Counted from the first letter of the stretch, positions 1 through 22,196 are shown. The stretch: 23,017 bases of DNA from a virus (IMGVR_UViG_3300048672_000472:1-23017), one strand, 5' to 3'. Translations and numbers: made by a program. The notes: generated by a model not told the origin, from the sequence alone.

Positions 1-3000
1 CTTTTGCCTTGTCAGGTATATTCGCTTTTTCGCCTTGCAATGCTTTATTCAATTCTTCTTTTTGTGCAGCGTCCAAACTTGAATAAGGTTTTCCATAGGC
101 ATCCTGAACGGCATTCTTAAATATAGCCGCACGATAACGCGACTCAATATCAATCATCGCGCTTTCTTTGCCTTGGCCTTCTACCTTGGCTTGAAAGAAT
201 GAATCAGGAAGTCCAGCTTCTTTTGTAAACCATCGACGATAACCACTGGCAATTCTTTTTTTCAGCTTTGTTTTTTCATCTTCTGATTTTTCAGGTATGA
301 ATTCATCAACAGAACTTTCAACATTCTTTTTAGAAAGGCGAATATCGGATTTATCATGATCAATAACTTTTACGCGCTCAGACCAAACAAATGTTTTTTG
401 GTTTCCATGTTCTGAAACAGCAGTTGTTTGACTATTTTTTTTCCAATTTGTTCCCATTATATCAACAAACGACTGGCCATCTTTTACATCAGTAAAATCC
501 ATATCTCCATGAACATATCCCAAGTTTGATTTTTTCGATAAACGAACTTCATCACTGTCTTTTTTTTCAGGATGATAGCCCCACTCATGAATTGAATTAC
601 CATCAGTAAAGATTTCAGAAGCCTTTACTTTTTTACTTATTATTTTATAGCCTTCATCGAGCCATGATTCACCATGCTCTTTTGCGTACTGTCTGTTTAT
701 TGATACCCAATCACCTGAGTTAATTTTATCAACATTATTTGGAACAGCTCTATAAATAGTTACTTCATAATCTGGTTTTCCACGCATTGCTTTTATGATA
801 TTAATTGACTGGTTATCAATCAATTTACTTTCAGCTCCATGCCCATAGTATTGAGCGCCTTTGCTTGAATAAATATCATCAGGATAAATATCTTCTAAAT
901 TGTCTCCTGAATTATTGCCTTGAGGAACTGGTGCCGTATGATCAATTTTATAATATTCTTCTTTCTTTGAAAGCCTTACATCATCACCAGCAACTCCTTT
1001 ATCAGTTGTCTTTAGTTTCTTTGCAGCAGTAGCCAGCAATGCCTCAATATCAGCCTTGCTGAATTCAATGCCAAAACGCTCACGCAACAGTTTACGAATC
1101 TTTGCAATAGCAAACTGAATTACATTGGGTCTAGCCTTGTTTGTTTCAGCAAACTCGGCAAGCATTTCTTCACCCATCCATGCTTCGTATCGCTCAATCT
1201 GTTCTTTTGTTTTTGCCTTCTCTTTTGCTTCAGTGTATTTTTTCTCTACATTAAAACGCTCTTTTGCCAATTGAGGAGAGTTGAAAACAGTGCGATAAAT
1301 TTCCTTTCCTTTTCTGCCAAGGTGCAAGTGCAATGCTTTGTGTCCGGCAATCTCATGTGCCAGAGTTTTAAGTGCATCATCAATCGAGTCTGTATTGTCT
1401 GAAAAAATATAACCAGAATAAGTGCCAGGATCATAAAGGCCATTTGCACCTTCCTCTAATCCCATCTTCATTAACTTATTAAATGTTTTTTCAGGCAAAT
1501 CGTAAACGGTGCGAACAACAGTGACATGCTTTGCCAATTCAGGAGCTTTCTTTTTTAATTGATCTTCAATAGTTTTTCTTTTGAATTCGCCTGCGCGATT
1601 CCTACGCTCAGCCTCTTGCTGTAGCGTTTCGCCTTTCCTTAATTTATTAAATCTAATAGGCGCGTTATCTTCATCGCCTTGCTCAATATATCTTTTTGCA
1701 CGCTGGGCGGCGTAATAACCTGGCGGCTTACGTCTTTCAGGAAACTTTTTTAAGTTATTATTTTCGTTATTCCCTGAAAATCCTTTTTGTGTTTCCGCTT
1801 CAGTATCAACAGAAGTTCCTGATTGCTCATCAGTGGAGACACCTTCAGGCTTTCTTGCAGCATCAGCCTTTTCCTGCGTTCGCTCCGCAATTCTTTCCTT
1901 CTCAATAGCTTCATATTCACGATCATTCTTTTCAGATTCGATACGCCGTTTTTCAACATTCTCGGCAGAGTAATACCCTGGAGGTTTGCGCCGCTCAGGA
2001 AATGATTTTTCATTTTGCCCACCTTTGGCTAATGATTCACCTTTAGTTTCGTCCTGCTTTTTGCCTTTGTCAACTTCTTTTTTACTCAATCGAATCAGGT
2101 TTTCATTGCCTTCAGGATAGTTCATATCCACGCCTTCAGGAGCCTTATTTTTAGCGGCTTCTTTTTCGGTAATTCCAGTTCCTAATTCACGCTCATAAAC
2201 CGATGCCGGTGCTTCATCTTCATTCTGTACAGGCTTGCCACGCAAAGGAATAGCTGCTGCAACATCAACAAGAATTCTCTTTTCTTGTTTTGTTAGTGGT
2301 TGCTTACCTGCATACTTAAATATGGCGCGCCTTATATCTTTTGGTTGATGCGGTACATGCTCATCAATCCACAATTGATTATCAGATATCTCTCCAGAAT
2401 TATCGCGTGAATATATCTTTTCACCCTGGTTTATTGATCGACTTATTAAATCAATTGCGGCATTATCATTATCTCCTTCAGACAAAAAATTATCCTCAGT
2501 CAGAGTCTCCTTAATATCGGATATTTTTCTGCCCCCAGATTTCGGAAATAACGGCTTGCCGCCTATGCGCATTCCAAATGATGCCGGGTCTATACCTTGT
2601 GCTTTTGCCTCTTCTCGATTGATACCGCCAACCTTAACCGCATGAGTTAATACATCATCACGCTCTGGATTCCTTGGGGAATTAACAGAATTCTTTGCTG
2701 ATCTTTCTTGATCAACAGCTTCATAATTAGCAATGTCAATCAATTTCTGACGGGTGTTTTTGTCTTTAAGCGACTCAATGGCCTGTTCATCTGTAAGCCT
2801 TTCACCAACAAACTCCTTGACAGGAGCCGCCTTTGCAGGAGCAGATATCTCTTCTGCCTTGGCAGTTGGTTTAACAATTGGCTTTTGCTCAACCTGCTTT
2901 GCAACTAACGCATCACGCGCACGCTTAGCCAATACAACAGCTTCAGCAGCCTGCTGTACTTCTGGATGATCCTTGCCAAGATGAACAACTTTTTCAATGG

Positions 3001-4228
3001 CAGATTCGGCATTTGATAAATTCTTTTCAGCAGTCTTAATATCATCAGCCTGTTTTTTCTGTGATGCTTTCTCAATCAAGCTATCAATATGCGCCTGCTC
3101 TTCAGGCGTTTTTTCTATGGCAGCAGATACAACATTGTCTGGATTTGCTGAGAAAACAGCATCCTCTTCTGGTGTTAAATCTTCACCAATAGCAATTTTA
3201 TTTTTAATAACAGAAAGATCTGGCTGAGCTTGTGTAACCAATTCAGGCTGTGCAGCTTCAGATTGATTCTCAGCAACTTTCTGCTTTCCCATTGCGCCAA
3301 CAGTTCCAGCTCCGGCACCCATAACACCGCCAGATAAAAGCCCCATTACAATAGACTGATCAACACCTTCGTCTAATGGTTTCCCATTGGCGTAGTTTTG
3401 AAGAACCTGCTCCTGTACAGATTGTGGCAATTCTTCCAGCACGCCTTCAGCCATAGCTCCTTCAAGCGCAGACCTGACAACAGTTTTTTTAAGTTCTGGA
3501 TTTTGTACGGAAGCAGCAAGCATTGTGTCTACATCACCAACGCCAAGTTTTTGCGCAACCTTACCGCCCAAAACGCCAAAAGCACCTGTTAGAACGCCAG
3601 TCGTTCCGGCTATAGTGGATTGTTTTCCAGTTAAAAGTTTATCATTAGACTGTGATCGTATTTGCTCCGCTGAGGAGCCTGCACTTATTGCACCCTCACC
3701 AATAGCGCCAGCAACTAAAGGAGCAACTTTTGGTGCTGCTTTCAATGCGCCGCGTGCAATGCCAGCACCACCAAGCATTTGGGGAGCAGACTCGACAACA
3801 GTTTGAGCAATCACCGAAGGATTGCGAATGGCTTCAATTGCCTTTGCCTTAATGCCTTCAGCATCAGAAACTTTTTTATTTGCCGCTTGCTGTTCAGATG
3901 AAAGCATTCCATGAAGAAAATTAACCGCTTCATCTGGACGATAACCTGCCTCTTCCAGATACTTTCCAACACGCCCACGCATGGGAATATCAATAAGACC
4001 AACCGCAGCTTGTGGCAATTGAACAGCGCCAGCAACAGCCGATAAGCCATAATCTCCAGCTCTCCGTAATAGTCCAGATTCTTCTGGTTGATTAATTGCT
4101 TGCTCAGCAGGCTGTTGTGGATTAAACGATTGCGCTATTTGATCAACAGCAACACCCTGATCTTCTGGTGACAAAGACGAAAAAGAATCATCGACCTCTA
4201 CGATCTTTCCAGAAATATCTAATTTCAT
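1..4228 (-). CDS. Giant polyvalent protein in the gp16 ejection-protein slot (partial)
   Basis: The reading frame is open from an ATG at 4228 to the left edge, giving 1409 codons without a stop, so the C-terminus is missing. The start overlaps the upstream stop as ATGA. Seen in order: a short N-terminal segment with GKIVEVDDSF; Ala/Gly-rich hydrophobic stretches (about 40-310); a Lys/Glu-rich helical region (about 390-460); a GGINREEAKAQGID segment near 530 as in large phage proteins; two FPERRKPPGYY copies (743 and 829); HEIAGH at 958-963 followed by ALHLH, like polyvalent-protein metallopeptidases; an ADP-ribosyltransferase-like segment with YRAVP (R1160), GDWVSINR and HEWGY (E1215); and four RLSKK linkers. 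The tail (about 1310 on) resembles the start of another large polyvalent domain. Position after two ejection-type genes matches P22 gp16. Ejection into the host is inferred; the enzyme calls rest on motifs only. Confidence 0.8.
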   Translation of the reverse strand, partial: MKLDISGKIVEVDDSFSSLSPEDQGVAVDQIAQSFNPQQPAEQAINQPEESGLLRRAGDYGLSAVAGAVQLPQAAVGLIDIPMRGRVGKYLEEAGYRPDEAVNFLHGMLSSEQQAANKKVSDAEGIKAKAIEAIRNPSVIAQTVVESAPQMLGGAGIARGALKAAPKVAPLVAGAIGEGAISAGSSAEQIRSQSNDKLLTGKQSTIAGTTGVLTGAFGVLGGKVAQKLGVGDVDTMLAASVQNPELKKTVVRSALEGAMAEGVLEELPQSVQEQVLQNYANGKPLDEGVDQSIVMGLLSGGVMGAGAGTVGAMGKQKVAENQSEAAQPELVTQAQPDLSVIKNKIAIGEDLTPEEDAVFSANPDNVVSAAIEKTPEEQAHIDSLIEKASQKKQADDIKTAEKNLSNAESAIEKVVHLGKDHPEVQQAAEAVVLAKRARDALVAKQVEQKPIVKPTAKAEEISAPAKAAPVKEFVGERLTDEQAIESLKDKNTRQKLIDIANYEAVDQERSAKNSVNSPRNPERDDVLTHAVKVGGINREEAKAQGIDPASFGMRIGGKPLFPKSGGRKISDIKETLTEDNFLSEGDNDNAAIDLISRSINQGEKIYSRDNSGEISDNQLWIDEHVPHQPKDIRRAIFKYAGKQPLTKQEKRILVDVAAAIPLRGKPVQNEDEAPASVYERELGTGITEKEAAKNKAPEGVDMNYPEGNENLIRLSKKEVDKGKKQDETKGESLAKGGQNEKSFPERRKPPGYYSAENVEKRRIESEKNDREYEAIEKERIAERTQEKADAARKPEGVSTDEQSGTSVDTEAETQKGFSGNNENNNLKKFPERRKPPGYYAAQRAKRYIEQGDEDNAPIRFNKLRKGETLQQEAERRNRAGEFKRKTIEDQLKKKAPELAKHVTVVRTVYDLPEKTFNKLMKMGLEEGANGLYDPGTYSGYIFSDNTDSIDDALKTLAHEIAGHKALHLHLGRKGKEIYRTVFNSPQLAKERFNVEKKYTEAKEKAKTKEQIERYEAWMGEEMLAEFAETNKARPNVIQFAIAKIRKLLRERFGIEFSKADIEALLATAAKKLKTTDKGVAGDDVRLSKKEEYYKIDHTAPVPQGNNSGDNLEDIYPDDIYSSKGAQYYGHGAESKLIDNQSINIIKAMRGKPDYEVTIYRAVPNNVDKINSGDWVSINRQYAKEHGESWLDEGYKIISKKVKASEIFTDGNSIHEWGYHPEKKDSDEVRLSKKSNLGYVHGDMDFTDVKDGQSFVDIMGTNWKKNSQTTAVSEHGNQKTFVWSERVKVIDHDKSDIRLSKKNVESSVDEFIPEKSEDEKTKLKKRIASGYRRWFTKEAGLPDSFFQAKVEGQGKESAMIDIESRYRAAIFKNAVQDAYGKPYSSLDAAQKEELNKALQGEKANIPDKAK

Positions 4229-5070
4229 TCAATTACTCTGAACTTGACGCCGCCCGGTGTTGTTGAGAAATCGACTGGAGAACCTGGATTAGGTTGCTTT
4301 GGTTGTTTTCCATACTCGCCTACAGGATTTTTCATTTGCTCTTCATAAAAAGCTTTTTCCTGAGGAGTCCAAAGAGCTTCTTGTTTTTGTTGCAATACTC
4401 CAAGGATATTGTCCGTATAATCAAACCACTTATTTCCTCCGCTAGATTTATCATCTAACAGCTCTTTTACTTTTTGCTCATTAAGTTTTGCAGATGAGTT
4501 TCTTTCATTAACCAATGCGTTAGACTCTTTTGATTTGCGAGTCTCTTCCCCTGACTTCATAACAAAATCAGTGTACTTATCAATCAATCCTGCTTTTGCT
4601 AATATAATACGCATAGACGAATCAACAAAATCAGGATTTTTATCAATCTCTTCGGGTGGAACAAGTCTATTTGCAGCTTTTGCTTCATCAGGAATTGAAT
4701 CATAATTATCTTTATAGGCTTTAACAGGATCTTTAGCGGTTATAATTCCATGAGCGATTTGCCCTGCTAACTCATTATTTCTTTTCACTTTTTCTACGCC
4801 GTATTCATCAACGGCTTTTTTGACATTATTAGCAAACACGCCATCAATTGCCGCCATTTGATCATACGCAGATTGAGCGCCTTGAGTGTCTCCTGATTCA
4901 CGCGCTTTCTGAAACGCATTGTAACCAGTATTTAAAGTTTCTTTCTTTACTTTCTCATCTTGCTTTTCCTGATCAGCAGCAGTAATTCTGCTTTCCTCAA
5001 AAGCATTTCTCCTGCGATTTTCAGCAAGATTAGCACCAGATATAAATGCGTCTATTGCGTTGTTTGGCAT
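4225..5070 (-). CDS. Putative ejection (internal virion) protein, gp20-like position
   Basis: The product is about 281 residues, strongly charged and predicted helical (many Lys, Glu, Gln, Ala), with almost no hydrophobic segments. The N-terminal region (MPNNAIDAFISGANLAENRR) is typical of phage injection proteins. It lies between a gp7-type gene and the giant gp16-position gene, and its stop overlaps the next start as ATGA, so it is probably translated in step with both. I chose ATG at 5070, just after the upstream stop; a TTG at 5082 is the alternative and has a slightly better AGGA upstream. No enzymatic motif is visible. Function is inferred from position and composition. Confidence 0.7.
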   Translation of the reverse strand: MPNNAIDAFISGANLAENRRRNAFEESRITAADQEKQDEKVKKETLNTGYNAFQKARESGDTQGAQSAYDQMAAIDGVFANNVKKAVDEYGVEKVKRNNELAGQIAHGIITAKDPVKAYKDNYDSIPDEAKAANRLVPPEEIDKNPDFVDSSMRIILAKAGLIDKYTDFVMKSGEETRKSKESNALVNERNSSAKLNEQKVKELLDDKSSGGNKWFDYTDNILGVLQQKQEALWTPQEKAFYEEQMKNPVGEYGKQPKQPNPGSPVDFSTTPGGVKFRVIE

Positions 5071-5074
5071 AAAA

Positions 5075-5806
5075 TTACCCAATCATGGACATATCCTGCC
5101 CATCTCCTGCCTGATTTTCGCCTGAACCTTTTCCGCCTTTAGGATCATATTTTGTTCCGGCATAAAACGCACCGGCACTACCTAAATTATTCCATAAATC
5201 AGAAGTAGCATTTGCTGAATTCTGATAAGCATTACCAATCGCATTTGTTTGTCCTGCTTCAGCACTCATCAACTGACCTCTATCTGATGCCGTTTGATTT
5301 GCTGAATTTTGACCAGTCACAGACTGATCTCGCAACACATTATATTTATTTCCAAGACGCGTGGCTTCCATATTGTATTCGCCAACACCACGTTGATAAG
5401 CATTCTGGAATTCATTGGATGCAGCATTCTGGTTATAATCAATTAAAGCTTTTTGTCCTTGAGTTGAAAAATACTTTCCACCAGCGCCCAATCTTTGAGT
5501 AGCTAAGCGATTTCCCTCAGACATACGGAATTTATAACCCGGATCTTGCTCCATTGACTTTGCATCAAAATGAAATTGACCAGGATCAAAAGAGCCATTA
5601 TTAATTCCATTTTGAATATCACGAAGCGCAGTTACACCGGCATCTCGCCAATCAGCATTTAATTGTTTTTGTTCTTCATATCCAGCCTGATCTCTAGCCA
5701 TTTGATCTCTGGCTAATCCTTCTTGACTAGATGCAGAATCCTTTTGCGCTTCTGATGACATATATGCCCCGCCAACAGCAGCAGCAGCAGCCCATCCCGC
5801 AGGCAT
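5075..5806 (-). CDS. Putative DNA-ejection protein, gp7-like
   Basis: The 243-residue protein starts with an Ala-rich hydrophobic N-terminus (residues 1-16) and continues as Gln/Asn/Ala-rich helix. A segment at about 88-140 with DPGYKFRMSEGNR, LGAGGKYFSTQGQKAL and NEFQNAYQR is characteristic of a widespread podophage virion family annotated as DNA transfer or internal virion protein. Length is close to P22 gp7 (229 residues). The C-terminus is Gly-rich (GGKGSGENQAGDGQD). The ATG is fused to the upstream stop as TAATG, suggesting coupled translation with the 2OG oxygenase gene. It probably resides in the capsid and leaves with the DNA; that role is inferred from family and gene order. Confidence 0.75.
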   Translation of the reverse strand: MPAGWAAAAAVGGAYMSSEAQKDSASSQEGLARDQMARDQAGYEEQKQLNADWRDAGVTALRDIQNGINNGSFDPGQFHFDAKSMEQDPGYKFRMSEGNRLATQRLGAGGKYFSTQGQKALIDYNQNAASNEFQNAYQRGVGEYNMEATRLGNKYNVLRDQSVTGQNSANQTASDRGQLMSAEAGQTNAIGNAYQNSANATSDLWNNLGSAGAFYAGTKYDPKGGKGSGENQAGDGQDMSMIG

Positions 5807-6345
5807 TAGAATACCCTCCCTGTCTTAATGCAGACTATCATGGTAATCCTCTCAAATTCAGTTGGATTAGTAACCGAGTGGGTTACATTGTTGATAAATT
5901 CGTAAACATCGCCCGGTCGTGATTCCAGTGACTCATCTTCAACAATAAATAATTGACCTGGAGAAGATTTAATTTGTATTGCAAATTTCCGGTAATAACC
6001 GGCATGCCATCCTTCGTCAATGTGCGGCTTACACTCTTTGAATGCAGGCAATCTTGTAAGCCAAATGCCGCCGAGGCGCTCACCATCGCAGAATCGCATC
6101 AGGTCATACACCATATCCTTGACGGGCAGAATGTCAGAAGGTGGAAGCCATACAGAATCATGCTCACCACGAAATTCAGTATCCGGCGCATAACGCAACC
6201 AAATATCGCTCATATCGTGATGGGGTGATTCAGGTGAACGAGTGCGGCTTGTATGCTCATCCCAAAGACCAGGATTTTCCTGTAATGCCCAAACGATGTT
6301 GGACACATTCAAACCAGAAGCAAGGCGCTTTATCTTGTAACTCAT
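5806..6345 (-). CDS. 2-oxoglutarate/Fe(II) oxygenase (aspartyl/asparaginyl hydroxylase-like)
   Basis: The 179-residue protein has the iron facial triad of 2OG oxygenases: H108-I-D110 in KPHIDEGWHAGYYRK, and a distal H156 in NNVTHSVTN. R166 (FERITMIVCI), ten residues further on, is positioned to bind 2-oxoglutarate. The strand GQLFIVED and the turn RPGDVYEF fit the jelly-roll between them. Such enzymes couple decarboxylation of 2-oxoglutarate to hydroxylation of a protein or small substrate; the substrate is not evident. The ATG overlaps the cupin stop as ATGA and its stop overlaps the ejection gene ATG as TAATG, so it is locked into the virion-gene translational chain. P22 has no counterpart here. 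Confidence 0.8.
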   Translation of the reverse strand: MSYKIKRLASGLNVSNIVWALQENPGLWDEHTSRTRSPESPHHDMSDIWLRYAPDTEFRGEHDSVWLPPSDILPVKDMVYDLMRFCDGERLGGIWLTRLPAFKECKPHIDEGWHAGYYRKFAIQIKSSPGQLFIVEDESLESRPGDVYEFINNVTHSVTNPTEFERITMIVCIKTGRVF

Positions 6346-6707
6346 TCTGCATCCTCATCCATGATCAAGGTTTGATCAACCTTTGCTTGTTCTTTCTCTG
6401 CTGAGTGATGAACGCAAAACCACATCGTATCGGATACGGCAGAAAACTGATGATTCAACCCTGCTTTGATAAATAAACAATCACCCGCATGATACGGACA
6501 AGAGCCTTCATCAGTAATGAGCATTCCCTTGCCTTCGGCAATAATGCTCCAATGATCATAATTATGTTTATGAGTTGTGGCCTGATTACCAGCAGGCAGT
6601 TCCATACGAATGGCAACAATAGGAATTGAAGGCGCAATAAAATGACGAGTCTGAAGGTCAATTTCAAACGTACCTTTATTCGCTTTGAAATCCTCGGCAA
6701 TACCCAT
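6342..6707 (-). CDS. Small single-domain cupin protein
   Basis: At 121 residues this is the size of a single cupin barrel. Cupin motif 1 reads TTHKHNYDHWSIIAEGKG (H46, H48, H52, then the typical glycine), and motif 2 is GDCLFIKAGLNHQF with H86. These histidines would bind one metal ion. It could be an enzyme or a metal or sugar binding protein; nothing shows the ligand. An AGAGG ribosome site precedes the ATG, and upstream of that is a GTTAG...CTAAC palindrome (6724-6739). The stop overlaps the oxygenase start as ATGA, so the two barrel proteins are made together and may act on one pathway (inference). Confidence 0.8.
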   Translation of the reverse strand: MGIAEDFKANKGTFEIDLQTRHFIAPSIPIVAIRMELPAGNQATTHKHNYDHWSIIAEGKGMLITDEGSCPYHAGDCLFIKAGLNHQFSAVSDTMWFCVHHSAEKEQAKVDQTLIMDEDAE

Positions 6708-6743: not shown

Positions 6744-6929
6744 TCACGGGAGAATATCAGCATCATGTAGCACCACAACACCCGTTTTTCCACATACTGA
6801 TTCAACAGGAGGATTATCTACTTTGGTAGCCATGGCCTGCATATACCGAATGAAATAATCAGTAGGCTTTCCATCCTTATCTACTATCGGCTGGAATGGA
6901 GACAGCGGTTCAGGTTTTACGCCAGCCAT
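6744..6929 (-). CDS. Short tail-associated protein with fibre-type C-terminal motif
   Basis: About 61 residues when started at the ATG at 6929 (MAGVKPEPL); a TTG six codons upstream is the alternative. The start lies inside the end of the gp10-like gene (13-base overlap). The sequence DKDGKPTDYFIRYMQAM is common in short phage proteins near tail genes, and the end, VCGKTGVVVLHDADI, matches the NGKTGxVxLxxxDI turn motif found at the start of many tail-fibre domains. It sits where P22 has gp26/gp14. A role as tail needle or plug companion is possible but not shown. Confidence 0.6.
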   Translation of the reverse strand: MAGVKPEPLSPFQPIVDKDGKPTDYFIRYMQAMATKVDNPPVESVCGKTGVVVLHDADILP

Positions 6930-8305
6930 ACACCCGCCCAAATACAAGCCATATCAGCCTTAGTTTCAAATTTGTAAGAGCGCCTATTTGGATACCCTAA
7001 TTTATACCACACAGCCCTTAATTCATTGTTTGGCTCAAGCTGAATTGGATCAGGCTCAGACCATGAACGCCCATCATCATCAGTATAGGAAAGCTCAATA
7101 ACAGGCCACTCTGGATTCAAAAGCCTTTCTGCATCCGTCATATCAATGCTGAGTTTTGCAGGTGTTGGCGGGTTGAAATGCTGAAGGATAAGCTCACAGC
7201 TATTTACCCTTCCATGATAATTATCAACCGGAGTAATCATTTTTCTTGGTATTGGAATGCCATTATCATTGCCAATATCAGAATCAAATACGCTTACTGT
7301 GGCACTATCACCAGACCCTACGTAGGTCACGCCATTCACCGTTATCATGGTATTCGATAAATGCCTACCATTTCCAGTAGTTCGATAATGCCAAAGCCTT
7401 GTGGCTGTATCATAAACAAGCGTCCTTTTCATGGATGGTATTTGTAAGAATACAAAATCATGCCCCTCTTGGCTTGAAGTCAGCATATAGGCTTCAGAAC
7501 AATCATAAAGAGAAAGCTCATATTCAATAGCATGCGTTGAAATAGGCTCAGGTGAATATCCATTTAAGCGATAAACACGAAGATCATCACCTAGCCAAAA
7601 AACTGTATTGTCATTCGTGCAAAATGAAAATGGCGTATAACAACCACGATCAATAAAGGCGCTCAGGTTTGGATTAAAAGGATAATCCTCGCCAGATACA
7701 TACCACGGCTCAATAGATGTTTGATTAAATAATATGGCCTGCCTATTGAGTGGTGCAACCCCCTGGATGTTATCGGGAGAACCTTCACAATTAGCCTCAT
7801 TTACCGGATCATTAAAAACATCAGTATAAAATCCTGATACTCTTTGACGATTTGTTTCAACATCAACAGATATAAAGTATCCATCGATGAATATAATTGA
7901 TCTTGATCTTGGAATATCAACTACAGCAGTTGCTCCGTTATCCATGTTGTAAGAATGAGCTGAATACCCATCTACCACAATAACAATTGTTCCATTGTCG
8001 GCTATCGAAGCTCTATCAACAATGTTAAAAGCATATCTAAGTATGTATGAGGTTCCGGTTATTTCATATAAACCTTTTCGAGTAGTAAAGAATATCTTTG
8101 TAGCTGTAGCATGAAAACCTGTTATCTGAATACCACCTTTAACAGTAAACAGCTTTCTAGTGCCCGGAGCGTTGATTAGTGAAACAGGTATTTGTGATGA
8201 AGTATTCGCCTGCGCTTCAGCATAAAGATTGGTTAACGCGGCAAGTGAACCAATCCTGCTTCTGCCGGAATCATTGCCAACAGTAAGCTGAATCTGCCGT
8301 TTCAT
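6917..8305 (-). CDS. P22 gp10-like packaged-DNA stabilisation / tail accessory factor
   Basis: The 462-residue length is close to P22 gp10 (472). The protein is beta-rich and starts with MKRQIQLTVGNDSGRSRIGS, followed by repeated strand-turn segments (GLYEITGTSY, FIDGYFISVD, DDLRVYRLNG, RTLVYDTATRLWHYR) as in the propeller-like gp10 family. In P22 this protein hexamerises under gp4 and closes the portal after packaging. The ATG overlaps the gp4-like stop as TAATG, and gene order gp4-gp10 is as in P22. The role is assigned from family resemblance and context. Confidence 0.82.
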   Translation of the reverse strand: MKRQIQLTVGNDSGRSRIGSLAALTNLYAEAQANTSSQIPVSLINAPGTRKLFTVKGGIQITGFHATATKIFFTTRKGLYEITGTSYILRYAFNIVDRASIADNGTIVIVVDGYSAHSYNMDNGATAVVDIPRSRSIIFIDGYFISVDVETNRQRVSGFYTDVFNDPVNEANCEGSPDNIQGVAPLNRQAILFNQTSIEPWYVSGEDYPFNPNLSAFIDRGCYTPFSFCTNDNTVFWLGDDLRVYRLNGYSPEPISTHAIEYELSLYDCSEAYMLTSSQEGHDFVFLQIPSMKRTLVYDTATRLWHYRTTGNGRHLSNTMITVNGVTYVGSGDSATVSVFDSDIGNDNGIPIPRKMITPVDNYHGRVNSCELILQHFNPPTPAKLSIDMTDAERLLNPEWPVIELSYTDDDGRSWSEPDPIQLEPNNELRAVWYKLGYPNRRSYKFETKADMACIWAGVWLA

Positions 8306-10161: not shown

Positions 10162-11409
10162 TTAGACGTTATCGCCAAGTACGCGCATGGCCAGGTCAGG
10201 AATTACCAAACCAGTACCATACAGCATATCCAAGCGATGAATCTCAGCCAGGTTTTCAATTCGGCCACCGCGTGTATATGACATTGAAATACCTTTGTAG
10301 GTTTTCATAGTCGATTTCAGTTGATCAGGGATGTACAACTTAGCCATTGCCAAGCACAGAGCATTCTTATGGAAGATAAAATCTTCACGATAAGTAGTGC
10401 TTGGGCTTCCGCTGAATGTAACAGCAGCGTTGTTTGCAGGTAGAGCAGTAACATTTTGATACTCAGCCAATGAAACAGTTTGACCGTTTGCATTGGTAGT
10501 AGTCAAAGTGCCATCATTCAACTGTGGAGATACCTTGACAGTAACAACACCACCAGCAGAAGTTGCATCAGCCATGATAACGAATGATTGCAAGTTACCA
10601 GTTGATTGATAGTTTTGTGGGTTTACGCTTTGAACATCAGCAATCGTGATGATATCACCAGCACGCGCAAACTGAGCCACGTTAGAACCACAACCATCAA
10701 TCTCGATGCTTGAAGTACCATCAGAATTAGCAACTACAGCTGTAGCAGTAACGAGAGTAGTGCCGTTCCATGCGCCAGTAGTGTGCTTGCGAAGGTTTTG
10801 AGATACGTGCATGGAGAAGGTATCAACATCACCGCTGTAACCATTCACGTAGGTATCTTTTACCATTTGCTCATTGAACAAAGATTTTACTTCATTGCCC
10901 AATACTGCCTTGGTAATAGGATTAATCACAGCGCGGCGATTGCGATCTTGTGGCCATGCCAAATCAGTACACAGTGCTGAAGCAGCAGCCCAATCAGCAT
11001 AAGCGCCAGGCGTTGAACCGGGTGTATGCGTAGTGTGGTATGCAGCTTTAGCATTCAACAGAAGAGAAAAGTCCACTTCGTTTGCCATACCAGCCATTGG
11101 GGTTTCCAAGTGACGGCTTGCCAATTCACTGATTGACAATGTTCGGTCAACAGCGCCCAACCGGAAAGAATACTGCTTCAGGTTGTCGAGTGTTAAATGA
11201 GTGTTCAATTCAACAACAGGTGCCTCTTGAAGCTCAATACCGCTTTTGATTTTCGCACGCTGCATTTTGCGAACGCGGATAGTGTCGCCCACTTCATGAA
11301 ATTTATCTTCATACTGGCGATCAACCAGAGGAACAACACACATATTGTTTGTAAGACAGATAATTGCTTCGTTAGCAATAATGTCGTCGGTTAAAATTTT
11401 AGCTGCCAT
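10162..11409 (-). CDS. Major capsid (coat) protein, P22 gp5-like
   Basis: The 415-residue size is close to P22 coat (430). The N-terminus (AAKILTDDIIANEAIICLTNN), the segment GDTIRVRKMQRAKI and the end (GGRIENLAEIHRLDMLYG) are typical of the P22 coat family, an HK97 fold. A beta-rich insert at about 205-335 (including GDIITIADVQSVNPQNYQ and LQSFVIMADA) corresponds to the P22 insertion domain. The start has a clear AGGAG ribosome site. It lies right after scaffold, the usual order, and is probably cotranscribed with it from the promoter at 12315-12343. Four hundred and more copies per virion are expected for the family; the copy number here is not shown by sequence. Confidence 0.9.
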   Translation of the reverse strand: MAAKILTDDIIANEAIICLTNNMCVVPLVDRQYEDKFHEVGDTIRVRKMQRAKIKSGIELQEAPVVELNTHLTLDNLKQYSFRLGAVDRTLSISELASRHLETPMAGMANEVDFSLLLNAKAAYHTTHTPGSTPGAYADWAAASALCTDLAWPQDRNRRAVINPITKAVLGNEVKSLFNEQMVKDTYVNGYSGDVDTFSMHVSQNLRKHTTGAWNGTTLVTATAVVANSDGTSSIEIDGCGSNVAQFARAGDIITIADVQSVNPQNYQSTGNLQSFVIMADATSAGGVVTVKVSPQLNDGTLTTTNANGQTVSLAEYQNVTALPANNAAVTFSGSPSTTYREDFIFHKNALCLAMAKLYIPDQLKSTMKTYKGISMSYTRGGRIENLAEIHRLDMLYGTGLVIPDLAMRVLGDNV

Positions 11410-14928: not shown

Positions 14929-15258
14929 TTAATCCCACCCTGTTATGGATACGAAAAATGAACCATCGGCTCCCGTGCTTGTGATCTTTACCGCCTCAAG
15001 AACCCCGTTGATTGGGTTAATAGTCTCGGGATCATCGAGCATTATGTAAACGATATTGCCGCCCCGGGTAAGGTTTTCAAAGAGATTTGAATTGATAGCC
15101 TTTACTTTTACCTCTACCGTGCCGGCAGTTGCACTCTCAGGAATTGCTGAAATCTGGTAGATGCTGGCTTTTGACATCATGGAAATATCACGAGAAGTAA
15201 TAATTAACTCCTCATCGGCAACGATTACCTTTGTTTTGTAGGTGAACAATACGCTCAT
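14929..15258 (-). CDS. Small beta-rich virion protein, unknown
   Basis: The 109-residue protein is made of strand-like segments (TYKTKVIVADEELIITSRD, GTVEVKVKAINS, GGNIVYIMLDD). The ATG overlaps the portal stop as ATGA, indicating coupled translation with portal. It leads into the fibre-like and 510-residue genes, so it may anchor or chaperone them (inference). No family recognised. Confidence 0.6.
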   Translation of the reverse strand: MSVLFTYKTKVIVADEELIITSRDISMMSKASIYQISAIPESATAGTVEVKVKAINSNLFENLTRGGNIVYIMLDDPETINPINGVLEAVKITSTGADGSFFVSITGWD

Positions 15259-17297
15259 GGTATGCCACCTTTTGACTCTTTGATAAACTCGGCCAATGCC
15301 TGAGCTACTAAATCCTTAACCTGGTTCTCATTGGCGGCCTTAGACTGCTCAGCCATAAGCCTTAGCTTTTCCTGTTCTGCCTGTAATTGCTCTTGTTGAG
15401 CTTTTAACTTTTCGGCCATTACTCTGGCTTCAGACTGAGCCTGCTTAGCTTTCTCAATCTCAAGTGCAATCATGGCATTTGGATCTGGTTGCGCTGGCTG
15501 CTGTTGTTCCTGAGCCTGTTCTTTTTGCAATTCTTCACGCTCATTCTTGCTCAGTACAGCAGGATTCATTGAACGTTTTATACGATCAGCCAGCCTTTGA
15601 GCAGCAGGGAAGTCAAGGTTTTCAGTGATAATATCAAGGCCAACAGCCATTTGTTCAGGCATCGCTTTTGCTAAATCCATCATCACATTAACGGTTTCGA
15701 TACGTTGTGTGGCGTAATCAGCACCGGCCTCTACATAACATTCATCCCCATCATCACGCATCAAACCTTCTGGCATTTGTACAAAATCGTTGGTTTGATC
15801 TTCGTTGTAAATACGAACTTCCTGCTCATTCTGATAAAGAACTGCCATGCCTTCTTTTAACAGATTTCCTACGCGCTTTATCGCATTATTCCGGCCATTG
15901 GTGAAACCATACTTTCCTGTTGAATCCTGGCGCTCTTTGGCAAGAATAGCCCGACCTGACTCATCATTGCGCACTTCACCACTAAAGTCTGAGCGCATAC
16001 CAATTGCTTGGTTTAAATCGTTTGTAGCAGTCAAATACAACTGCATTGCAGCCGCTGGAATATCAGGTGGCGGTGCTTTTTCTGGTTTAGCGCCGGGTTC
16101 CAGTGGGTCAGGTTTGCGTAATAGCAAACTCGGCTTAGCAGTATTCGCGCTTTCCCATGCGGCCTGTTGCCCTTCAACCATTGCAGCTGTTGCCACCCAT
16201 GGCTGATTAGGCTGATTGTCCACCATTTGCGTCATGGAAGAACGCCAGAAGTTGGCATCTTTTTGAGCATCACGCGCCTGACGATGGACAGATTGGAATA
16301 GCCTCATCCCATCAGAAGTAACCACTTCAGAACCAATCATAGGCACAAGGTTTATCGTGCTGAATGGGGTAACAACGCCGCGTGCACCACCTTCCAAAAT
16401 CTTATTGCCGGACAATCTGCGCCATACAACCTGATAAACAGGACGGTATATGCCTTGATTAACTTCTGCCATGATCTCGGCTTGCGGCCTACGAACGCGC
16501 TCCATGTACTCAGCAACGATAACAAACTCTTCGGTTGCCCATGTAAAACGTGGAGACATTTGATTGGTGTTGAAATCAGTAGTCGAGGCATCAGGAAACA
16601 TTTCTTTAAACTTTTTCTTTGGCATCTTGGTAAATACCACGGCATCCCGTGCATCAGACCAATCGTCTTGAATGCCTGAATAGTCAATCATTGCATCAGA
16701 CGGGTTTATAACCCCTGATATTTCCATGATTGGCCGACCATAATCATCAGCAATAGCATCAACACGCAGCCAACCAAAACCACCAACAGCCATTTGATTG
16801 GATGCCCGGTCATACCAGGATTTTGCATTTGATTTAAGTTCAATGGTTTTTGCGATAGATGAGCGAACTTCAGCCCTTGTGTATTCCTGTTTGGCAATCT
16901 TGCCCATCAAAGTTCCGGCACCTGCATCATAGGTTGTTGCGCGGTACTTAATACATACTTCGTTTTGGAGAATGTCCCCCATGACACGCTCAACGAACTG
17001 TGGGAGCTTATTTACTGTAAGGGTTATTTCGCCTTGACGATCCTGTAGAGATTGCTCAGACCATTGGATGCCAGCGTGCATATCCCTATCGATTTCTGAT
17101 TCCTCGATGTTCCTTTCCCACCAAGACCAAAGCTCATCGACTCTGGTAGTTATCCTATGAAGAACCTCGTATTCCTCTTCCTGATTAGTTTCGGCTAATT
17201 CGTGAGCATCATTCTCTTCAGAAACAGAATCATCCGGCGCATAGTCAGTACCAGCGCCAGACGTTTCAAACTCTGAATTCTTATATTCGTTGTCCAT
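15255..17297 (-). CDS. Portal protein, P22 gp1-like
   Basis: The 680-residue protein is close in size to P22 portal (725). The N-terminal region (WWERNIEESEIDRDMHAG, WSEQSLQDRQGEITLTVNKLPQFVERVMGDILQNE) is typical of the family, and the stem/clip part carries IDYSGIQDDWSDARDAVVFTK. From about residue 590 a long Gln/Glu/Lys/Ala coiled coil continues to the end, matching the helical barrel of P22-type portals. Twelve copies form the DNA channel at one capsid vertex. The ATG follows a GAGG ribosome site just past the hairpin at 17310-17327. The terminase genes are upstream, one small gene away. Confidence 0.9.
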   Translation of the reverse strand: MDNEYKNSEFETSGAGTDYAPDDSVSEENDAHELAETNQEEEYEVLHRITTRVDELWSWWERNIEESEIDRDMHAGIQWSEQSLQDRQGEITLTVNKLPQFVERVMGDILQNEVCIKYRATTYDAGAGTLMGKIAKQEYTRAEVRSSIAKTIELKSNAKSWYDRASNQMAVGGFGWLRVDAIADDYGRPIMEISGVINPSDAMIDYSGIQDDWSDARDAVVFTKMPKKKFKEMFPDASTTDFNTNQMSPRFTWATEEFVIVAEYMERVRRPQAEIMAEVNQGIYRPVYQVVWRRLSGNKILEGGARGVVTPFSTINLVPMIGSEVVTSDGMRLFQSVHRQARDAQKDANFWRSSMTQMVDNQPNQPWVATAAMVEGQQAAWESANTAKPSLLLRKPDPLEPGAKPEKAPPPDIPAAAMQLYLTATNDLNQAIGMRSDFSGEVRNDESGRAILAKERQDSTGKYGFTNGRNNAIKRVGNLLKEGMAVLYQNEQEVRIYNEDQTNDFVQMPEGLMRDDGDECYVEAGADYATQRIETVNVMMDLAKAMPEQMAVGLDIITENLDFPAAQRLADRIKRSMNPAVLSKNEREELQKEQAQEQQQPAQPDPNAMIALEIEKAKQAQSEARVMAEKLKAQQEQLQAEQEKLRLMAEQSKAANENQVKDLVAQALAEFIKESKGGIP

Positions 17298-21417: not shown

Positions 21418-21433
21418 GTTAGTGGTTACTAAC
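21418..21433. repeat. GTTAG palindrome, site E (16 bp, perfect)
   Basis: GTTAGTGGTTACTAAC has perfect 6-bp arms with a 4-base centre. It contains the stop codon of the replication gene (21429-21431) and lies just before the ribosome site of the next gene. As RNA it folds into a 6-bp hairpin with a tetraloop. Confidence 0.65.
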
Positions 21434-22196
21434 TTTCAGCCCAACTTCTGTCCGATATTCGCTCAATAAATCCTAAATCCTGCTTTCCTAGCGCCTTTGG
21501 TGCTTTGTTAAATTTTGGCGCGTTTGTGTACCAGGTTACCCAAGCCGCATCCCAGTCGGCCATTGTCTTACCGTGCTGTTTGTGGTGATTCTGGAATTCT
21601 GCGAATTGACCCCTAACATCAAGATCCTCGCGATTCAAGTTTGACCAGTACAAAATTGCTAGGTTTGCGCGTTTTGTCGTAAGAATAAAATCATCAGGCA
21701 TCTTTGTTTTTTTTATCGAGCGAGCTTTAGCGAGCGGTTGTGTTTCGATGATTGCAGGAAGTGAGCTATCTAAACAAATATCTTTCTTCTCTTCTCTTCT
21801 CTTCTCTTCTCTAGTCGTGTTTTTGTCCGTTTGCCTTTCGGACACATTTTGGATTTTTCTAGATGTTCTTTTTCTTTCTGAATCCATTGCCCTGTTCTTT
21901 GCTGATTTACCATTATGCGAGTCAAATCTAGGAACAGAAAGTGAGTTTTCGCTAACAATAAGCCATCCTACTGACTCCATATGCTTAGAAAAGCCGTCGA
22001 AAAAAATTATTTTATCAAGTGTTTCTGGCGTATACCCATCTAGAACACCATCTTCAGAATGAGCATCAAATATAGACCAAACTGCAAAAAGACCGCCAAT
22101 TACGTGAAGTCTGTCCTTATCTAGTCCTGTAGACATACGGACAACTTTTGGACTTGTTAATAAATCAACTCGAATTTTAATCCAATCAACGGCCAT
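21429..22196 (-). CDS. Phage replication protein (winged helix plus DnaT-like domain)
   Basis: The 255-residue protein opens with DWIKIRVDLLTSPKVVRMS, GLFAVWSIFDAHSEDGVL, GFSKHMESVGWL and FDSHNGKSAKNRA. That is the DNA-binding winged-helix part of phage O-like replication initiators. A low-complexity Arg/Glu/Lys linker (about 129-138) follows. The C-terminal domain (about 165-230) with VRGQFAEFQNHHKQHGKTM and DWDAAWVTWYTNA matches DnaT-like primosomal single-stranded DNA binding domains, which help load the host helicase. The linker is encoded by five perfect CTTCT repeats, a slippage-prone tract. The ATG overlaps the stop of the 32-codon ORF as TAATG. No helicase gene follows in the window. 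Confidence 0.82.
   Translation of the reverse strand: MAVDWIKIRVDLLTSPKVVRMSTGLDKDRLHVIGGLFAVWSIFDAHSEDGVLDGYTPETLDKIIFFDGFSKHMESVGWLIVSENSLSVPRFDSHNGKSAKNRAMDSERKRTSRKIQNVSERQTDKNTTREEKRREEKKDICLDSSLPAIIETQPLAKARSIKKTKMPDDFILTTKRANLAILYWSNLNREDLDVRGQFAEFQNHHKQHGKTMADWDAAWVTWYTNAPKFNKAPKALGKQDLGFIERISDRSWAES

Follow-up and report, generated by a model that had tools for sequence, protein, structure and literature searches.

Can a large multidomain effector occupy the place of a phage ejection protein, and if so, what would it do there? The question is raised by IMGVR_UViG_3300048672_000472:1-23017, a 23,017-base virus fragment from IMG/VR (the window below, meaning the whole stretch), which carries on its minus strand a P22-type morphogenesis operon ending in a giant open reading frame (ORF). 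The order of genes is terminase small and large subunits (matches to PF04466/PF20901), portal, scaffold, coat, head closure, a cupin/tail-fibre-like gene, a gp7-like ejection gene, a 285-amino-acid (aa) gene, and the giant (Table 1). The giant is the second gene after the gp7-like one; it stays open for 1409 codons up to the contig edge, without a stop, and its 3' end is missing. We find that gp20 and gp16 have been exchanged for a short gene and a giant recurrently in P22-type phages, and that the giant of the window combines what is very probably a zincin metallopeptidase with a candidate ADP-ribosyltransferase (ART).

A first-pass annotation had described the giant as a gene of more than 1400 residues, coupled by ATGA, that follows gp7- and gp20-like genes and replaces P22 gp16. 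The length holds, and the ATG of the giant does overlap the TGA of the 285-aa gene (gaATGAaatt). The gp7-like gene matches phrog_598 (1.8e-13), but the gp20 label stands by position only: the 285-aa gene has no detectable similarity to gp20, nor to its short counterparts in related phages.

The last slot of the ejection operon

The same operon was read in other phages through relatives of the head-closure and coat genes. Its ordinary form, gp7 (~240 aa), gp20 (462-470 aa) and gp16 (613-651 aa), is found in Rhodoferax P26218, DSL-LC05 and ctfPj964, and dozens of IMG/VR loci have a protein of 530-1000 aa in the last position. A giant form, gp7 (228-257 aa), a short gene (284-295 aa) and a giant (2631-3640 aa), is found in Thalassomonas BA3, Vibrio 1.211, 1.183, FGH, 41E34.2, VvAW1 and Shewanella X14. 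The window operon has the giant form, its giant being by position the last gene of the gp7-gp20-gp16 module. Three further IMG/VR loci (L012-L014) share this layout, with Hc3 and gp7 genes (L013 also portal and coat) followed by a giant with an ART-like domain, a zincin and LPD38, and in L012 and L014 that giant is complete at ~1580 aa.

The union of a P22 ejection operon with a polyvalent effector, to which the first-pass annotation had drawn attention, is therefore real but not new to the window, since BA3, VvAW1, X14, FGH and other Vibrio phages have it. We found no account of it as a swap, though several sequenced marine phages share it. The VvAW1 and X14 giants are named DNA methylase or methyltransferase in the parts of the two phage descriptions covered here (PMC3558961, PMC9011153), and in those parts we found no remark that the giant occupies the place of gp16. 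The BA3-like giants share with that of the window the slot, the operon and the size of the preceding short gene, but their N-terminal sequence differs and they are annotated as DNA methylase or DarB-like. Those scanned have a methylase in the middle (a methylase-helicase dyad in VvAW1), whereas the window giant has an ART-like module, which was not found in theirs.

P22 gp16 occupies the same slot and likewise closes the ejection operon, but has 609 aa and no enzymatic domains. Homology of the giant to gp16 was considered and rejected, because profiles of gp16 bodies and of giants showed no similarity; "replaces" is thus to be taken in a positional sense. The N-termini tell more. Ordinary gp16s start with short tags, often in tandem, and a hidden Markov model of one tag, built from three ordinary gp16s and run against 13,655 ORFs, picks out the N-termini of six giants of the BA3 type (4e-8 to 2e-4) and no others. 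With a second tag type, the VvAW1 giant is the best match outside P22-type gp16-sized proteins (E 0.001). We infer that the tags are packaging or ejection signals. Sharing of a tag by the window giant is not supported: when the nearest-looking tag was tried in two versions, its N-terminus ranked 1975 and 779. A third tag type has its best outside match at the start of 401-aa ORFs (L076:4729-5931, L079, L081), which carry the ART-like module described below and lie upstream of a P22-type coat gene.

These data bear on whether the giant is extra cargo that happens to sit in the slot, the function of gp16 not being replaced and some other protein performing the inner-membrane step. We regard this as unlikely: the dissimilarity of giant and gp16 body would agree with it, as would an N-terminal tag in the window that is not a recognised gp16 tag, but the cultured BA3-type phages examined have no separate gp16- or gp20-sized gene ahead of the giant in the module, and six giants do carry a gp16-type tag.

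A probable zincin domain and an ART-like module

The motifs picked out by the first-pass annotation lie at the residues it gave: HEIAGH at 958-963, YRAVP at 1159 (R1160), GDWVS at 1172 and HEWGY at 1214 (E1215). Its likening of HEIAGH to polyvalent-protein metallopeptidases is borne out. The motif belongs to a conserved domain in which H958, E959, H963 and E1021 are invariant in eight giants (the window giant and seven others aligned), and the HEXXXH form has been described for polyvalent peptidases (PMC5512222). The AlphaFold2 (AF2) model of the domain (predicted local distance difference test, pLDDT, 76) has three strands, an HE helix and an E helix, which gives the element order of a polyvalent-protein zincin: HEXXXH, a downstream Glu on a second helix and a three-stranded sheet. 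In a fold search of the PDB, zincin toxin complexes account for 11 of the 12 top-ranked chains, at E values of 0.27-1.5. A link to the N4 virion RNA polymerase is not relied on: chains of this enzyme were the only PDB matches to the profile of one alignment, at a borderline E of 0.014-0.43, and the match was absent when another alignment was used. As a query against the collection, the zincin profile was too poorly conserved to collect relatives. We conclude that residues 882-1082 are very probably a zincin of the polyvalent-protein kind.

The ART-like module is a real and widespread phage module, with relatives in 174 phage records and 244 IMG/VR stretches. Stand-alone copies measure 144-163 aa, and the module is also part of proteins as long as 5063 aa; among 68 ORFs, 26 have at least 1000 aa. 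The R-S-E triad of ARTs that had been proposed here fares well in order and conservation. The position of R1160 is R in 53 of 53 sequences, partly fixed by the search pattern, and also in all seven of a BLAST-collected set; the position of residue 1176 is T in 47 and S in five of 53 (S in the window, T in most members); and the position of E1215 is E in all 52 sequences where it is present. In the AF2 model (pLDDT 87), the first core strand carries R, S/T falls at the second and E at the final one, the order that marks the R-S-E clade. The top five PDB fold matches are chains of Exoenzyme S (ExoS), an R-S-E ART, at a non-significant E of about 1, and several ARTs recur lower in the match lists of both libraries searched.

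Comparison by hhalign with the T4 enzymes gives a score of 20.1 against ModA, which none of 300 length-matched decoys attains, and of 16.3 against ModB, a score that nine decoys reach. R1160 is paired with ModA R72 and ModB R73, and the ModB alignment pairs S1176 with the serine of FSTN; a ModB R73A,G74A variant is inactive (PMC10468400). With T4 ModA/ModB/Alt, then, R and S are in register (R in both alignments, S with ModB), but whole-domain similarity is not significant, and the R-to-E distance is 55 residues in the window module, compared to 93 in ModA. The module has no Pfam model, and no Pfam ART match was obtained among 53 members. Identity with ART-PolyVal (PF18760, H-Y-D) was ruled out, as PF18760 gives no match and, in some giants that have the module, stands as a domain of its own. 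The giants of L042, L048, L082 and L036 have the module together with canonical ART-PolyVal domains, of which some giants have two or more; in L036 the match falls short of the curated cut-off. The module is also seen in ORFs of 281-285 aa in P22-type operons (L059, L060, L073, L074, L085), where they immediately precede the gene of the terminase large subunit. An ART fold for residues 1088-1226 appears plausible and on the whole probable, though not proven.

It may be instead that the giant is a virion protein that mainly protects incoming DNA, an anti-restriction function like that of P1 DarB/DdrB, and that the YRA-GDW-EWG module binds or acts on nucleic acid rather than being an ART. PHROG names lean this way (DarB-like antirestriction for the N-terminus, ParB C-terminal domain for the module), as do the methylases of the BA3-type giants, with the VvAW1 dyad, and the insignificance of the ART matches. 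The R-S/T-E order, the in-register alignment with ModA and ModB, and the occurrence of the module both alone and beside ART-PolyVal domains in the same giants argue the other way and make this account, to our mind, rather unlikely.

Polyvalent proteins as surveyed by Iyer et al. in 2017 are large, multidomain late-operon phage proteins with zincins (HEXXXH included) and LPD-type relatives (PMC5512222). The window giant resembles them in combining zincin and ART-like modules, each conserved separately, and in being encoded among the late, virion genes of a P22-type operon. That survey, which mentions neither P22, F116 nor ejection, puts polyvalent ARTs in the H-Y-D clade and states that Alt-type R-S-E ARTs are absent from genuine polyvalent proteins (PMC5512222); a confirmed R-S-E ART in the window giant, if true, would change that statement.

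A repeated inter-domain motif and other segments

The pentapeptide RLSKK occurs four times in the window giant, at domain boundaries, compared to 0.0035 copies expected from shuffling; the first-pass annotation had overlooked it. Each copy encodes its Arg by a different codon, and the same holds for its Ser, which indicates that the repeat is kept at the level of the protein and did not arise by recent copying of DNA. A loose motif, [IVLMD][RKML][FYLM]S[KR], gave 15 matches versus 7 expected, with 4 of the 15 from the window itself, and was given up for the narrower [DE][IVM][RKLM][FYLM]S[RKQ], found 5 times versus 0.55 expected in 32 other giants, some of them seen during design of the pattern. 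With the pattern fixed beforehand, six new unrelated giants gave 5 matches versus 0.14 expected (none of 500 shuffles reached 5). Control ORFs gave 3 versus 2.8. Seven giants have a copy ahead of the C-terminal module, at ~890-1050 residues from the C-terminus, and from this distance we predict that ~900-1000 residues are missing from the window giant.

The inter-domain motif may be a processing site. Autoprocessing by polyvalent zincins has been proposed (PMC5512222), a term search of that paper finding no cleavage site for it, and our hypothesis is that the zincin cleaves at this motif. The same data bear on whether the giant might belong to the ejection channel as a late structural or tape-like protein, its peptidase and ART-like domains being decayed remnants. 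Its late-operon position and the long charged linkers that separate its domains would suit such a protein; we consider it very unlikely, given catalytic-type residues that are intact and invariant among relatives and RLSKK copies conserved as protein despite their differing codons.

The N-terminus of the giant matches phrog_30335 (1e-62), phrog_11358 and the DarB-like phrog_10089. The linker preceding the zincin has two copies of FPERRKPPGYY, likewise overlooked by the first-pass annotation, which are identical as protein and in 26 of 33 bases. Searches for relatives of the small segment 1234-1294 and of the C-terminal 114 aa found none, nor did single-sequence patterns find relatives of the whole giant in IMG/VR or GTDB genomes, or a single-sequence search those of the window Hc3; NCBIfam and PADLOC gave no relevant match. 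Elsewhere in the window, the cupin gene (6342-6707; Cupin_2, 2.8e-12; short-tail-fibre/adhesin PHROG matches) lies between the head-closure and ejection genes and is followed by a 179-aa gene (5806-6345) with weak hydroxylase/cupin similarity, and a replication initiation protein is encoded at 21429-22196 (phrog_2509, 3e-56).

Table 1. Features of the giant ORF and of its operon, in window coordinates
Feature	Position	Strand	Match or remark
P22-type portal protein	15255..17297	-	PF16510, 1.8e-96
P22-type coat protein	10162..11409	-	PF11651, 1.4e-34
Head closure Hc3 / P22 gp10-like	6917..8305	-	phrog_578, 3e-64
gp7-like DNA ejection protein	5075..5806	-	phrog_598, 1.8e-13
285-aa gene at gp20 position	4225..5082	-	no detectable homologue
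Giant polyvalent ORF, at least 1409 aa	2..4228	-	3' end past contig
N-terminal module, residues 47-422	2963..4090	-	common to giants of F116/H66, Y7, IMG/VR L092-L095
Domain of unknown function, residues 448-614	2387..2887	-	2e-8; also in giants of Vibrio phages 1.232 and 1.205
RLSKK copy 1, residues 713-717	2078..2092	-	
FPERRKPPGYY copy 1, residues 743-753	1970..2002	-	
FPERRKPPGYY copy 2, residues 829-839	1712..1744	-	
Zincin metallopeptidase domain (probable), residues 882-1082	983..1585	-	HEIAGH and E1021
HEIAGH, H958-H963	1340..1357	-	
RLSKK copy 2, residues 1085-1089	962..976	-	between zincin and ART-like domain
ART-like module, residues 1088-1226	551..967	-	phrog_2579, 4e-37; R1160, S1176, E1215
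RLSKK copy 3, residues 1229-1233	530..544	-	past ART-like domain
Small segment, residues 1234-1294	347..529	-	no relatives found
RLSKK copy 4, residues 1297-1301	326..340	-	ahead of C-terminal module
C-terminal region start, residues 1302-1409	2..325	-	ends at contig edge; no relatives found

Proposed packaging and ejection of polyvalent giants

Related giants are virion proteins. H66 gp60 (3787 aa), whose N-terminal module is homologous to that of the window giant, is annotated as verified in the virion by mass spectrometry, and 51 peptides of JC1 gp69 (DarB-like, 4515 aa) were obtained from purified virions (PMC9144972). The DarB-like/PLxRFG giants of F116/H66 and Bcep22/JC1 have a larger tail module ahead of them, so that theirs is not the compact P22 gp7-gp20-gp16 layout. 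By analogy with H66 gp60 and JC1 gp69, the window giant would be packaged and injected, and it may, as the first-pass annotation proposed, modify the host at once. Polyvalent proteins in general are predicted to enter the host together with DNA, and T4 Alt is packaged in the head and injected (PMC5512222).

The explanation that we favor, and judge fairly probable as a whole, is that the window belongs to a BA3-like P22-type podovirus with a polyvalent protein encoded where the third ejection protein would be. Most likely the head would carry the giant and eject it along with the DNA, and the giant would serve as the inner-membrane/cytoplasmic end of the ejection apparatus. Its domains would then act in the host cytoplasm, an R-S-E-kind ART modifying a host macromolecule and the zincin acting as a protease. 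The most likely substrate of the zincin would be the giant, which it would cleave at the repeated D-[IV]-R-[FYL]-S-[KR] motifs between domains, so as to free effector pieces. Several observations weigh against this explanation: neither the zincin nor the ART-like module has a significant structural match, the hhalign probability for an ART is <10%, profile similarity between gp16 bodies and giants was not detected, the N-terminus of the window giant matches none of the gp16 tags, and its C-terminal half is missing, so that LPD38 is not seen in the window. A broader proposal, which we put forward as a doubtful one, is that the polyvalent giants of phages are ejected as polyproteins, that they have in common an inter-domain processing code, D-[IV]-[RK]-[FYLM]-S-[KRQ], at which their zincins cut after entry to release effectors, among them an unrecognised R-S-E ART family, and that the BA3-like lineage traded gp16 (and gp20) for one of them.

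Three things are new here: the recurrent swap in the gp16 slot, the inter-domain motif and, in polyvalent proteins, a candidate family of R-S-E ARTs. The steps of the mechanism past packaging are our inference. The results bear on how polyvalent proteins enter cells and on whether they are processed by their own zincins. For both questions, a compact P22-type module that has a giant in exchange for gp16 is a tractable system, as ordinary and giant versions of the operon exist in related cultured phages, some sharing short N-terminal tags, and the inter-domain motif is a concrete candidate for the cleavage site. The ART-like family, found in more than 170 phage records and without a model in Pfam, would add to the known injected enzymes of phages.

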